Shown here piece by piece: positions 7,824 to 38,250 of a DNA stretch of 64,000 bases. Source of the stretch: Thermovibrio sp. (lineage in GTDB: Bacteria > Aquificota > Aquificia > Desulfurobacteriales > Desulfurobacteriaceae). The notes below the pieces were generated by a model. It saw only the letters and a list, made by a program, of their open reading frames with translations. It was not told where the DNA came from and ran no database searches. Numbering within the stretch: the first letter of the stretch is position 1; each line of letters begins with the position of its first letter. The stretch is from positions 30,755 through 94,754 of the forward strand of contig WFYG01000044.1 in NCBI GenBank assembly GCA_015490195.1, given 5' to 3'. The position numbers and the translations under genes are program-made.

Positions 7824-9397
7824 GTTTTATCTGAACTAGTGGGATTTAAACCGATTTATGGAGCCTTTTATCTCATCAAGGCTCCAATAGTTTTATCTGA
7901 ACTAGTGGGATTTAAACATGAACTTTCTGCCGCAGACAGGACAGGTTTTCTCTGGTTTTATCTGAACTAGTGGGATTTAAACTTTATTTCGCTCCTGCTT
8001 TTATCGGTTGCTACTTTATGTTTTATCTGAACTAGTGGGATTTAAACTTTACTTGCAAAGAGAAGGAATGTCCGATATGTAAGTTTTATCTGAACTAGTG
8101 GGATTTAAACCCTTATAGTGGTTTATTATCTTCACTACTGAAATATAGTTTTATCTGAACTAGTGGGATTTAAACATCTATGTTAGAAATGCTACATTAA
8201 TTCATAGAATTGTTTTATCTGAACTAGTGGGATTTAAACGGAAGACAAAAGACGGCAAGCTAATGAACAACTGGGTTTTATCTGAACTAGTGGGATTTAA
8301 ACTTGTTACACGTGAGCCTTAAAGGCTCAGGTTCACCGGTTTTATCTGAACTAGTGGGATTTAAACTTAAAATATGAGGGAGGCATTTAACCTCCCTCAT
8401 TGGTTTTATCTGAACTAGTGGGATTTAAACCAACTCTGTGCATGAAGTAGGCTCCGGCGGCTCCTCGTTTTATCTGAACTAGTGGGATTTAAACTAAAAA
8501 CACAACTAAAAACGACTTTGTTGACGCCAAAGTTTTATCTGAACTAGTGGGATTTAAACCAAAAGAGGCTGAAGAATACACGGGGCTGTGTTTCAGTTTT
8601 ATCTGAACTAGTGGGATTTAAACTTCTAAGGCTCTCTGAAACGCCTTCTTCTTAATGCCCAGTTTTATCTGAACTAGTGGGATTTAAACCTTCTATTGCT
8701 TTTTCGTAAATACTCTTTTTGAAAGTTTTATCTGAACTAGTGGGATTTAAACCACTAAACGCGCAAGGGAATGGAAAAGACTCGTGAGAGTTTTATCTGA
8801 ACTAGTGGGATTTAAACGGAGCCTGGAGGACATCGCAAACATCAAAAGAAGTGTAAGTTTTATCTGAACTAGTGGGATTTAAACTAAACAAAAGGGGCTT
8901 ATCGGAACCCTCAAAGAGAGTTTTATCTGAACTAGTGGGATTTAAACAGGTCAAAGGTTTCGTCTCCGTTGTCTCCAAAGTCGTTTTATCTGAACTAGTG
9001 GGATTTAAACCAAGGAGTACGGTTCAGGAGTATAAGTTGGGCTTAGGAGTTTTATCTGAACTAGTGGGATTTAAACCAATCTGTTCATACTTTGAGAGTA
9101 GCTCGGCAAGGGTTTTATCTGAACTAGTGGGATTTAAACCTTCCTGGGCTGCCGTGAACGCCTGCATCCCAGAGAGGTTTTATCTGAACTAGTGGGATTT
9201 AAACTATTGACCCTGTAGAGGAGCTCCCGGACGAAGTAGCAGGTTTTATCTGAACTAGTGGGATTTAAACTCTTTTTTCTACTCTCCCCCGGACTATGAG
9301 GAAATTGGTTTTATCTGAACTAGTGGGATTTAAACTGTTCACGAGTTAAACAGGTTGTCTGAGGAGGGAATAGGTTTTATCTGAACTAGTGGGATTT
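7824..9397 (+). CRISPR. CRISPR array: 25 repeats (24 identical 28-mers plus a truncated terminal repeat) and 24 spacers of 35-39 nt
   Basis: Repeat GTTTTATCTGAACTAGTGGGATTTAAAC; degenerate repeat at 9374-9397 marks the distal end, so the leader is at 7612-7823 next to cas2. Confidence 0.99.
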
Positions 9398-31613: not shown

Positions 31614-33053
31614 ATGAACACAAGACAGCTTCTAAAGGGTGCTCTGGCCGTAGCTACCCTTGTAACGCTCGCCTCTGCACCGGTTTCAGCTTCTGTAACG
31701 GCGACTCAGAAGGATTTTTCTGTTGCAGAGTCGCTTCAGAAGGTTTTTGAGTCTGTTGCAGAGAAGGTTAAACCTGCAGTTGTTAACATTAGCACTGTTT
31801 CAGAGATAAAAATAAACCACCCTCCTATTCCTCCTGAGTTCAGGGATTTCTTCCATCAATTCGGCTTTCCGTTTCCTGAAATTCCTGAGCAATTTCAGAT
31901 GAGAGCTCTCGGTTCAGGGTTTATCGTTAAAGAGAAGGACGGCTGGGCTTACATTCTTACTAATAACCACGTGATATCTCATGCAAAAGTTATAAAGGTT
32001 AAGCTGAGTGATGGCTCTGTTTATAGGGCTAAGGTCGTAGGTAGAGATCCAAAAACAGATGTTGCTCTTATCAAGATAAAGGTAGGTAGTAAGAAGGTTC
32101 CTACAGTTCAGCTTGGTAATTCCGACGACATAAAAGTTGGTGAGTTCGTTATTGCAGTGGGTAACCCTTACGGCCTGAACTGGACTGTAACTCACGGAAT
32201 CATCTCTGCTAAAGGAAGGCACGGTTTAGGTCTTAACCCAATTGAAGACTTTATCCAGACCGATGCAGCTATTAACCCGGGCAACAGCGGTGGTCCTCTG
32301 TGTGACATTCACGGTAGGGTTATAGGGATAAACACAGCCATCGTTAGAAATGCTCAGGGGCTTGGTTTTGCTGTTCCCATAAATATTGCAAAGAAGGTAA
32401 TGAACGACCTTCTTAAGTACGGAAAGGTTATAAGGGGCTGGCTTGGAGTTTACATTGAGGATGTTTCTCCTGAACTTGCCCAGAAGTTTGGAGTTAAACA
32501 CGGGGTTCTTGTAACAAAGGTTATGCCCGGTTCTCCTGCAGAGAAGGGTGGCCTTAAGAGCGGCGATATTATCGTTAAGTTTAACGGAGAGCCTGTTAAG
32601 AACGTTACGGATCTGCAGCTTAAAGTTATAAACACTCCTCCAGGGAAGAAGGTGAAGATTACCGTTATTAGAAACGGGGCAGAAAAGGTTCTTACCGTGA
32701 AAATAGGTCAGATGCCGGGAAGCGTTAATGTTGCTACTACCGACCTTATGAGTAAGTATGGCATTTCTGTCCAGAAACTTACTCCTGAGCTCCGCAAGAA
32801 ACTGGGAGTTCCAGATTGGATTAAACACGGTCTGCTCGTTACTTCTGTTAAGCCGGGTTCACCTGCAGATGATGCTGGACTTCGTGAAGGAGATATTATT
32901 GTTGAAGCTGGAGTTACTCCCAGAACCATGAAGCCGGTTAAGAGCGTTGACGACCTTGTAAACATTCTGAATCAGGCCGGTAACTCTGGTGTTCTTCTGA
33001 AAGTTATAAGAGGAGAAGGTGTAATCTACGTTGTTCTCAACCCGGAGGAATAG
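31614..33053 (+). CDS. degP: DegP/HtrA serine protease with two PDZ domains
   Basis: ILTNNHVISHA, TDVALIKI, TDAAINPGNSGGPLCD, two GLxxGDIIV PDZ motifs. Confidence 0.95.
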   Translation: MNTRQLLKGALAVATLVTLASAPVSASVTATQKDFSVAESLQKVFESVAEKVKPAVVNISTVSEIKINHPPIPPEFRDFFHQFGFPFPEIPEQFQMRALGSGFIVKEKDGWAYILTNNHVISHAKVIKVKLSDGSVYRAKVVGRDPKTDVALIKIKVGSKKVPTVQLGNSDDIKVGEFVIAVGNPYGLNWTVTHGIISAKGRHGLGLNPIEDFIQTDAAINPGNSGGPLCDIHGRVIGINTAIVRNAQGLGFAVPINIAKKVMNDLLKYGKVIRGWLGVYIEDVSPELAQKFGVKHGVLVTKVMPGSPAEKGGLKSGDIIVKFNGEPVKNVTDLQLKVINTPPGKKVKITVIRNGAEKVLTVKIGQMPGSVNVATTDLMSKYGISVQKLTPELRKKLGVPDWIKHGLLVTSVKPGSPADDAGLREGDIIVEAGVTPRTMKPVKSVDDLVNILNQAGNSGVLLKVIRGEGVIYVVLNPEE

Positions 33054-33054
33054 A

Positions 33055-34017
33055 ATGGAAGAGAAGGAGTTCTTCTTAGAAGACGAGGAGAATCAGATTT
33101 TTGACGATAGTGTGGGAGCTCCCTCTGGAGAGGGGGAGTTTTCCCTCTTTGACCAGGAGATAGACCCGTCTCTCATAGAGTCTTTTGTACCCGATAAAGA
33201 CTCTTTAGATGCTTTTCTGAAGGCTATATCAAAGATTCCTCTTCTTTCAAGAGAGGAGGAGATAGAGCTGGCAAAGAGGGCAAAAGCCGGCGACAAAGAG
33301 GCTCTGAAGAAGCTTGTAGAGTCAAACTTGAGATTTGTTGTCAGCGTTGCTAAAAAATACCTTGGATGCGGACTGCCCCTTCACGACCTGATAGCCGAAG
33401 GGATTCTTGGATTGATAGAGGCTGCAAGGCGATTTGACCCTGATAAGGGGGTTAAGTTCATCTCATACGCCGTATGGTGGATCAGGCAGTCCATTATGCA
33501 GGCTCTTGCCCAGCAAACGGGAGCTGTAAAAATACCGGTTAAACAGGCAGTTCTTGTAAACAAGATTACCAGATCTTATGGAGAGCTCCTTAAAAAACTC
33601 GGCCGTGAGCCGACAACCGAGGAGCTTGCAGAGTACGTTGGGATGGAGCCGAAAGAGATAGAAAGGCTTCTCTCAATCTGCCAGGTGCCTCTTTCCCTGG
33701 ATACGCCCATCGGAGATGAAGAGGATACAACCTTTAAAGACTTCCTTAAGGGAGAGGGTACTGCTGAGGTAGAAGAGAAAGTTGTTCAGGAAGAGCTCAA
33801 ACAGAGCATTCAGGAGATGCTTGAACAGCTGACTCCTCAAGAGAAGAAGATAATCATAATGCGTTTCGGACTTGATGGAAACGAGCCCAAGACCCTTAGA
33901 GAGATAGGGGAGAAGTTGGGAATAAGCCGTGAAAGGGTTCGTCAGCTTGAGACAAGGGCTAAGAAGAAAATGAAAGAGTACGCTTTAAGAAAGAAACTTA
34001 ACGTTTTTTTGAACTAA
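33055..34017 (+). CDS. RNA polymerase sigma-70 family factor
   Basis: DLIAEGILGLIEAARRFDPDKGVKFISYAVWWIRQSIMQAL; LREIGEKLGISRERVRQLETRAKKKMKEY. Confidence 0.95.
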   Translation: MEEKEFFLEDEENQIFDDSVGAPSGEGEFSLFDQEIDPSLIESFVPDKDSLDAFLKAISKIPLLSREEEIELAKRAKAGDKEALKKLVESNLRFVVSVAKKYLGCGLPLHDLIAEGILGLIEAARRFDPDKGVKFISYAVWWIRQSIMQALAQQTGAVKIPVKQAVLVNKITRSYGELLKKLGREPTTEELAEYVGMEPKEIERLLSICQVPLSLDTPIGDEEDTTFKDFLKGEGTAEVEEKVVQEELKQSIQEMLEQLTPQEKKIIIMRFGLDGNEPKTLREIGEKLGISRERVRQLETRAKKKMKEYALRKKLNVFLN

Positions 34018-35466: not shown

Positions 35467-36228
35467 TTATCCCTCTTTAACTTCAACTCCAAATAGTCCT
35501 GCCAGTTTCTGGCGAAGAATGTTAGGGTTAATCCCCTTCTCTATAGCTTCTGCGGTAAGTATGTAGGCTTCAAGGAAGAGCATTTTCAGGTCTTTGTAGT
35601 ACTTGAGTTTCTTGGCCACCGGAATACAGAGAGTGTTTGCAAGGATAGCTCCGTACAGGGTTGTGATCATAGCTACGGCCATACCGGGACCAAGAGCTGA
35701 AGGGTCTGAAAGGTTCTGGAGCATCTGAATAAGACCTATCAGCGTTCCTATCATACCGAAGGCGGGAAAGAGGTCGGCGAGAGACTCCCACACCGATGCT
35801 TCTGTGGAGAGCTTCTGCTCTATCTGTGCCATAGAGCTCTCAGCGGTACTCTTTATCTCTTCCGCTTCAAGGCCGTCTATTAGCATCCTCATTATGTTTC
35901 CAAGGAATGGGTCTTTTGCGTAGAACTGGTCTATGTCTGATTCTAAAGCAAGTATGCCTTCCTTACGGGCTTTTTTTGCAATTTCTGTCAGGAACTCAAC
36001 GGTTTCTAGGGGGTCTCCAACTTCTGGTTTTATAACTTTAAGTATAGCTTTAAGACCTCCTATAAACTCACCGAGAGGATAGCCTGCAAGTCCTGCAGCC
36101 AGTCCGCCTCCAACGGTGATGAGGAGTGAAGGGACGTTGATGAATGCACCGGGACTCCCTCCGATGACTATTGAACCAATAATCAGTAAATAGGCTGCGG
36201 CGATACCTATTAGCGTTGCTATGTCCAT
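35467..36228 (-). CDS. motA: MotA stator protein
   Basis: DIATLIGIAAAYLLIIGSIVIGGSPGAFINVPSLLITVGGGLAA; LADLFPAFGMIGTLIGLIQML; GPGMAVAMITTLYGA. Confidence 0.95.
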   Translation of the reverse strand: MDIATLIGIAAAYLLIIGSIVIGGSPGAFINVPSLLITVGGGLAAGLAGYPLGEFIGGLKAILKVIKPEVGDPLETVEFLTEIAKKARKEGILALESDIDQFYAKDPFLGNIMRMLIDGLEAEEIKSTAESSMAQIEQKLSTEASVWESLADLFPAFGMIGTLIGLIQMLQNLSDPSALGPGMAVAMITTLYGAILANTLCIPVAKKLKYYKDLKMLFLEAYILTAEAIEKGINPNILRQKLAGLFGVEVKEG

Positions 36229-36277
36229 GTTTCACCGCCTTCTTTTTCTGGTTTGGCCAGCAGAAGGCCTTTATCCA

Positions 36278-36304
36278 TTTTCGGCGTTATTTTAGTTGTT
36301 TTTA
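36278..36304 (-). promoter_or_regulatory. sigma-28-type promoter for motA
   Basis: On the minus strand TAAAAACA-N11-GCCGAAAA; matches TAAA-N15-GCCGATAA except one base; about 43-nt 5' UTR to motA. Confidence 0.65.
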
Positions 36305-36487
36305 GGCAGTAAGGAGTTTACTGCCGTCTGAGTCGTTGTTCCGACTGGCTGATAAATATAAATTAACGAATATGGTGTAGGGGAATAGTAGGTGAGTTCT
36401 GCCATGAGGGGGGAATCGGTTACCTGTCTGTTTCCTGTGGAAGCTTAAGACAGAGATAAGGTTGGCATTTTGTTTAAGTTAATTAAG

Positions 36488-36514
36488 ACAAATTGTGTCT
36501 CAAAAAGACGATAA
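36488..36514 (+). promoter_or_regulatory. sigma-28-type promoter with no flagellar CDS directly downstream
   Basis: ACAAATTG-N11-GACGATAA; shares CAAATTG-N13-CGATAA with the flgK promoter. Confidence 0.5.
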
Positions 36515-36520
36515 TATTCC

Positions 36521-36612
36521 TGTGTAGGGAATCTTTCCCTGATGCCCCACATTAGCCGTCCCATCGGCTGCCACAGGCAGCCTGAAAGCCCCTCACCTGG
36601 AGGGGCCTCTTT
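36521..36612 (+). ncRNA. Candidate structured small RNA (about 90 nt)
   Basis: Hairpins AGGGAA/TTCCCT (36526-36540), AGCCG/CGGCT (36554-36569), GGCTGCC/GGCAGCC (36566-36582), then terminator. Confidence 0.45.
36588..36612 (+). terminator. Intrinsic terminator of the candidate ncRNA
   Basis: GCCCCTC-acctg-GAGGGGC followed by CTCTTT. Confidence 0.65.
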
Positions 36613-36630
36613 AAACTGTATAATTGCACT

Positions 36631-38250
36631 ATGGTTTTTGCTGTTTTTCTTTTGATTCTTTTACTGTTCCCTTTACAGGTTTTTTCGCTCTCTCTTAACA
36701 GTGCAGAGATTTTTGTTTCTTCTCTACACTCAGGAAAGTTCTGTTCGGCAGATTTCAGAAGGCTTTTTTCTACAGATATAGGAGAATCTGCTATTCTCCT
36801 TTACCTTGATAAGTGTTCCAGTTTAAAGGGAGTAAAGGAACCAGACAACCCTTACGGTAAGCTGAAACTTGCTGCTCTTTTAATGAGGGAAGGTAAAAGA
36901 GAAGAGGCAAAGAGAATCTACCTTAAGCTCTTCTCTCACAGTAACAATTTTGATGAAGAGATTCTCTTCTTAAATCTTGGTGATGCTAACTATCTTTTTA
37001 AACCTGAAGTTTTAAGGCGTAAGGTGTGGATTGCTGCGAGACGGGGGAATACCGATACGGCTCTCTTTTACCTTTCGTACTTAAGAAATGACCCGTACTA
37101 CACCTATTTACTTGCTTATGTGTTTTTAAAGGAAGGAAAGAGAAAAGAAGCCAGATTTTTGTTTTCTTCTTCTGTTCCTGAAGAGCGTTACTTTTTCTTG
37201 ATGTACTTGACTAAGGGACTCTATGGTAAGTTTGAGTTTTACCGTAAGCTTATGGAGAGTTCAGCCTCTAAATCTTTTAAAAGAGTTGCCACTGTCTATA
37301 TACTTGACAGACTGTTTCAGGAAGATGTAGGACTTTTCAGGAGAGCTCTTTCTTACGCCAGAGCTTTTCCGGGAATATACAGGTACTACCTTGCCCGTTA
37401 CTATGCCTTGGTGGGTAAGTGCTCCGGTTTAAAGGCACTTTCTGCAAGATCTGAGACTGCAGCTGCTCTTTATGCTGTTTGTTCGGGGAAGAGGTGGAAA
37501 GGGTACAGGCTTGACTTCTATAAGCTTTTGCTCTCTCCACCTGATAGTTTTCCCTATAGCAGGAAGGGGATGTTTTCCGATCTGAAGCTTAAAGATAGTG
37601 GTCTTTCCTACCTCTACAGGAAGGGATTCTGTAGCGTGATTTCTTTCATAAAGAGGCCTTCTCCTCAGAACGCCCTTGCCCAGTACCTCTGCGGGAACTA
37701 CAGAGAAGGGATAAAGCTTGCTGCTCCTTTTAAAGAGAAACTTCAGAAATATCCTTACCTGCTTCCCGTTCTATACCCGAAGCCTCCTGTTTTCGGTGAT
37801 GATGTTGTTTCACTTGCCATTGCAAGGCAGGAGAGCCTGTTTGACGAGAGAGCTCTTTCAAGGAGCGGAGCTATAGGACTAATGCAGATAATGCCTTTTA
37901 CGGGAAAGGCCATTGCCAGAAGGCTCAAAGTTAAAGGCTTTAAGGTTCGTCACCTCTACAACCCTGAAGTGAACTACAGGTTCGGTTCCTACTACATCCA
38001 CACCCTCCTGAAAAGGTTTAAACTCTTTCCCCTTGCTGCAGCTGCTTATAACTGCGGTCCCGGCAGAGTAAAGAGGGCTCTAAAGAAGTTCGGAGCAGTC
38101 AGAACGCCTCAGGATTTGATACTCTTTACAGAGGTTTATATCCCGTTTCAGGAGACTAGGGATTATGTAAAGAGGACTTACGTTAACCTCTATTACTACT
38201 CAAACCTTTACGGAAAGGGGACGGAGTGGAAGATTTTCTCAAAGCACTAA
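36631..38250 (+). CDS. Soluble lytic murein transglycosylase (Slt-like)
   Basis: ARQESLFDERALSRSGAIGLMQIMPFTGKAIA; NPEVNYRFGSYYIHTLL; AAAYNCGPGRV. Confidence 0.92.
   Translation: MVFAVFLLILLLFPLQVFSLSLNSAEIFVSSLHSGKFCSADFRRLFSTDIGESAILLYLDKCSSLKGVKEPDNPYGKLKLAALLMREGKREEAKRIYLKLFSHSNNFDEEILFLNLGDANYLFKPEVLRRKVWIAARRGNTDTALFYLSYLRNDPYYTYLLAYVFLKEGKRKEARFLFSSSVPEERYFFLMYLTKGLYGKFEFYRKLMESSASKSFKRVATVYILDRLFQEDVGLFRRALSYARAFPGIYRYYLARYYALVGKCSGLKALSARSETAAALYAVCSGKRWKGYRLDFYKLLLSPPDSFPYSRKGMFSDLKLKDSGLSYLYRKGFCSVISFIKRPSPQNALAQYLCGNYREGIKLAAPFKEKLQKYPYLLPVLYPKPPVFGDDVVSLAIARQESLFDERALSRSGAIGLMQIMPFTGKAIARRLKVKGFKVRHLYNPEVNYRFGSYYIHTLLKRFKLFPLAAAAYNCGPGRVKRALKKFGAVRTPQDLILFTEVYIPFQETRDYVKRTYVNLYYYSNLYGKGTEWKIFSKH

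Follow-up and report, generated by a model that had tools for sequence, protein, structure and literature searches.

Sigma-28-dependent small RNAs (sRNAs) are already known as a kind. In Campylobacter jejuni, CJnc170 (FlmR) is an unprocessed, FliA-dependent sRNA of 47 nt, and its overexpression results in shorter flagella and less motility (PMC11187230). In Escherichia coli, UhpU, MotR, FliX, and FlgO are sigma-28-dependent sRNAs derived from untranslated regions (UTRs) (PMC10578931). Within Aquificales, a study of noncoding RNAs reports novel candidates for Aquifex aeolicus, and passages of its main text make no mention of the RNA described here (PMC4227106).

The RNA considered below, a predicted transcript of ~92 nt, resembles CJnc170 as a small noncoding RNA that is predicted to depend on FliA, as CJnc170 does; it differs in length (~92 nt versus 47 nt) and in phylum. 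It shares with the E. coli sRNAs its sigma-28 expression, predicted here from the promoter, but those RNAs are derived from UTRs, whereas this one forms a gene-like unit of its own with no sense relation to motA. The link that defines MotR, a UTR-derived RNA in sense with motA, was not found, as motA is on the other strand and, in a second genus, is located elsewhere. With the candidates of the Aquificales study it has in common the same broad group and the character of a GC-rich structured RNA in an AT-richer thermophile genome; those candidates are from A. aeolicus, whereas homologs of the present RNA were found in two genera of Desulfurobacteriaceae only.

The window analyzed is a stretch of 64,000 nt from a thermophilic vent bacterium of the Desulfurobacteriaceae (Aquificota). 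It contains a gap of 402 bases between motA (35467-36228, minus strand) and an slt-like lytic transglycosylase gene (36631-38250, plus strand), and the RNA is predicted at 36521-36612 on the plus strand, with its start set by promoter spacing and its end by the last hairpin. All of the motifs quoted in the original prediction were present at their positions, including those that place the start near 36521. From the sequence, we favor, with some confidence, a sigma-28 (FliA)-dependent sRNA gene, probably trans-acting. What the analysis shows directly is the promoter motif, the conservation, two helices, the noncoding character of the transcript, and that Hfq and a FliA-like sigma factor are encoded.

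The -35 element of the promoter (ACAAATTG, 36488-36495, plus strand) is followed, after an 11-nt spacer counted from the -35 octamer, by the -10 element (GACGATAA, 36507-36514, plus strand). The -35 element reads TCAAATTG in three congeners, which is also the -35 sequence of the flgK promoter, and T(T/C)AA in the second genus; the latter keeps the promoter boxes but not the spacer sequence. NNAA-N17-CGATAAT was found at the matching place in all seven RNA homologs; six of them also match TNAA-N17-CGATAAT exactly, and the window departs from it at a single base (A for the first T). The latter pattern occurs seven times in the window's genome, and four of these sites lie 6 to 34 nt before flgD-, fliC-, flgM-, and flgK-like genes (identified by recognizing their sequences). 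Related genomes have the pattern ahead of flgM, flgK, and genes for flagellins and chemoreceptor-like proteins. Whole-genome counts over nine genomes gave 78 matches versus 45 for a reversed-pattern control, an excess that is only modest, and the evidence for the promoter is therefore its position before flagellar genes, not the number of sites. A weight-matrix scan placed the RNA's site fourth among ~128,000 window positions, below flgK, a site in a CRISPR-like array (8925, minus strand), and motA's own site, with a matrix that was trained on sites picked with the same pattern and whose scores flatter the fixed positions. The claim of a sigma-28 promoter was thus upheld: flgM, fliC, and flgK of these genomes are preceded by the same motif, which is also conserved ahead of the RNA in seven genomes. 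At the level of the motif, a sigma-28 promoter lies directly upstream of the RNA, as expected of a sigma-28-dependent sRNA. A FliA-like gene (201 to 234 amino acids) was present in the genomes tested, with a score below the family's curated cutoff.

The CRISPR-like array (8872-9192), an open frame of repeated VLSELVGFK units, holds a false sigma-28 match. In several genomes, a sigma-28 site is followed after ~30 nt by the gene for a protein of ~80 to 95 amino acids with no assigned family (...SKAQEVTYQ...; loci L045, L125, L126, and L152), which makes this a candidate flagellar-class gene.

Homologs of the RNA were sought by several routes. A DNA search of 41 genomes showed that positions 36489-36625 are 81 to 86% identical in three congeners, and the congener alignment shows a conserved block that extends from the -35 box to the slt start. 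Reading of the DNA before slt revealed a structural homolog in three genomes of the second genus (G020, G013, and G008). A covariance model, the check suggested in the original prediction, was built from seven sequences and then run on 136 genomes of the class; it confirmed conservation, with scores of 66 to 90 bits in seven genomes of two Desulfurobacteriaceae genera and ~23 bits for the next best match. A search of 22 family genomes with a laxer filter gave no further homologs. Weak model matches in G005, G004, and G011 proved on reading to be ordinary AAAGCCCC..GGGGCTTTT terminators, and a match of 19.8 bits on a Lachnospiraceae contig was taken as chance, as were the other pattern-scan matches outside the family. 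Rfam 15 returned no match at the gathering score for the window and none at E values up to 5 for positions 36280-36660, and membership in its families (riboswitches, 6S RNA, and signal recognition particle RNA) was not found. The RNA family appears to be unreported so far. Genomes G004 and G018 have flagellin genes with sigma-28 sites, and slt, and do not have the RNA, suggesting that the RNA is dispensable in carriers of flagellar genes; the presence of the RNA does not follow that of flagella.

The predicted RNA begins with a 5' hairpin (AGGGA/TCCCT, 36526-36540, plus strand) that is present in its own genus and in G013 and is weak or absent in G020 and G008. The single-stranded GCCCCACA that follows (36544-36551, plus strand) is identical in all seven homologs and is a candidate pairing seed; it and AGCCGU are the most conserved unpaired parts of the RNA. 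Downstream on the same strand are an alternative hairpin, AGCCG/CGGCT (36554-36569, with arms 36554-36558 and 36565-36569), the main hairpin, GGCTGCC/GGCAGCC (36566-36582, with arms 36566-36572 and 36576-36582), and the last hairpin, GCCCCTC/GAGGGGC, with its tail CTCTTT (36588-36612, with arms 36588-36594 and 36600-36606 and tail 36607-36612), a possible intrinsic terminator. The 95-nt predicted transcript folds at z = -2.8 relative to dinucleotide shuffles. Two helices form in all seven sequences (84 of 84 pair cells are standard, compared with 42 to 64% in slid-partner controls), and each has one compensatory pair (U-A to C-G) and one G-C/G-U pair, as is seen in the main hairpin; the covariation consists of two changes that separate the two clades and probably arose once each.

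The hairpins AGCCG/CGGCT and GGCTGCC/GGCAGCC had been described as mutually exclusive. They do overlap, but covariation backs only the larger one. In the second genus, the larger hairpin carries a compensatory change that disrupts the outer A-U pair of the alternative hairpin, of which an invariant 4-bp core is left; a conserved switch is therefore not supported. All seven sequences were predicted to form the larger hairpin at 70°C, G003 in a shifted version. The small hairpin was predicted in partial transcripts and, in this modeling, is a possible cotranscriptional intermediate.

Indels among the congeners have lengths that are not divisible by three, and the plus-strand frames hold stops, so that the transcript is noncoding, as is expected of an sRNA of the sigma-28-dependent class. 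Read from the minus strand, the G-U pairs of the plus strand (in two and four sequences) would become A-C mismatches, which favors a plus-strand RNA. A short minus-strand reading frame in G002 was set aside, as its register is not kept.

The RNA adjoins motA in its own genus only. Its 5' neighbor differs between genera, motA being located elsewhere in the second genus, and yet the unit is retained in full, promoter through hairpin; slt is the 3' neighbor in all seven carrier genomes. The conserved neighbor is therefore slt, and the position next to motA does not represent a meaningful link. Nor is the promoter an orphan in its own genus, where it diverges from motA's own sigma-28-type promoter (TAAAAACA-N11-GCCGAAAAT, 36277-36304, minus strand; read from 36304 to 36277), which is kept in the congeners. 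There the two promoters are back to back with ~11 bp between them (alignment read by eye). In the window they are separated by a stretch of ~180 nt (36306-36484), present as a single copy, absent from the three congeners, and found in the window genome alone among the genomes searched. This stretch contains several hairpins and one GGCTGATAAAT box. In G020 (locus L014), the RNA homolog lies near a CRISPR-like array, in a 5' context unlike that of the other carriers. Elsewhere in the window, a sigma-70 family gene (33031-34017, 328 amino acids) converges on the motAB-like cluster and is distinct from the shorter FliA-like gene. Thus, of the flagellar-class sRNA originally predicted, the sigma-28 promoter and the conserved, structured, noncoding RNA were retained, and the switch, the motA link, and the orphan status were not.

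An intrinsic terminator had also been predicted before slt. The last hairpin is conserved and has one compensatory change, yet just three U residues follow it, in a tail of CUCUUU or similar among the homologs, and it was not listed in a terminator scan. By comparison, five or six consecutive U residues occur in the ordinary terminators (AAAGCCCC..GGGGCTTTTTT) noticed incidentally in the family. Termination at this hairpin is plausible, with the conserved hairpin in its favor and the weak U tract and the scan against it. Beyond the tail is a TATAAT (36619-36624, plus strand), and the slt ATG starts 7 nt after its last base, as in a leaderless gene. Genera that have no copy of the RNA carry a comparable box about as far from the slt ATG, suggesting that slt has a leaderless transcript of its own. 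The leaderless-looking start (36619-36633) is common to slt genes across the family.

The constancy of slt, whatever the upstream neighbor, and the weak U tract are also what would be seen if the RNA were a sigma-28-driven 5' leader that acts in cis on slt, raising or attenuating expression of the lytic transglycosylase in flagellar assembly. That enzymes of this type make way for flagella through the wall in other bacteria adds to the case. Such a leader is the main alternative, but we consider it unlikely: slt has its own TATAAT near the ATG whether or not the genus carries the RNA, the long transcript would have no clear Shine-Dalgarno sequence near the slt ATG in most genomes, and a plain leader would not need so strong an invariant core. 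A different relation to slt would be coupling at the level of promoters, in which sigma-28 transcription disturbs the slt promoter situated where it ends, making the RNA a by-product. The tail of the last hairpin stops 6 nt before the slt -10 box, as such interference would have it, but the invariant GCCCCACA, AGCCGU, and the compensatory changes are left unexplained, and we judge this reading improbable.

A metabolite-sensing riboswitch built on mutually exclusive hairpins is suggested by the hairpin overlap and by the invariant 4-bp core of the smaller hairpin. That explanation is very improbable, given the lack of an Rfam match even at an E value of 5, the compensation of the larger hairpin in the second genus while the smaller one loses its outer pair, and the prediction of the larger hairpin at 70°C in 7/7 sequences. 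Least probable of all is a chance promoter look-alike beside DNA conserved for another function, such as a minus-strand element upstream of motA. Read from the minus strand, the entire spacer also folds with unusual stability (z = -4.2), and several minus frames are open, but motA is not adjacent in the second genus and has its own promoter closer to its start, and the G-U pairs indicate the plus strand.

For the favored sigma-28-dependent sRNA, we infer transcription, termination, action in trans, and a seed as follows. FliA-RNA polymerase would start near 36521 when the flagellar late genes are on, and the resulting RNA of ~92 nt would end at the hairpin at 36588-36606, just ahead of the independent slt promoter. 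The stable downstream hairpin would keep the C-rich stretch UUCCC...GCCCCACA...AGCCGUCCC unpaired, and this stretch may pair with G-rich segments of target mRNAs, possibly aided by Hfq. Such pairing would tune translation late in flagellar assembly. Trans-acting pairing is suggested by the invariant C-rich stretch and by analogy with CJnc170 and the E. coli sigma-28 sRNAs. It is conceivable, though we put it at somewhat under an even chance, that this RNA family, specific to a lineage of Aquificota and controlled by sigma-28, links other genes to late flagellar assembly by pairing of its invariant C-rich stretch with mRNAs and so forms a posttranscriptional flagellar checkpoint; we know of no such checkpoint in Aquificota. 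A conserved sigma-28 sRNA in Aquificota, if true, would suggest that posttranscriptional flagellar control by sigma-28 RNAs is widespread or has arisen repeatedly. The analysis provides a defined candidate of ~92 nt, for which seven sequences and a covariance model are available.

Hfq was present in all eight genomes tested and CsrA was found in none, so a pairing RNA of the Hfq type is possible, and a CsrB/CsrC-type sponge is excluded as far as the CsrA model reaches. Complements of GCCCCACA near start codons (30 sites read) identified no gene in common, and duplex energies with flgM, fliC, flgK, and motA were at shuffle level for these four genes (z between -1.5 and +1.5). The proximity of Hfq to flgM was rejected as a functional hint, as it reflects the usual miaA-hfq pair downstream of gltX. 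Besides this miaA-adjacent Hfq, two neighboring Hfq-domain matches in open frames of ~166 to 190 amino acids were observed in every genome tested (G000:C8:8336-9009 and seven relatives).
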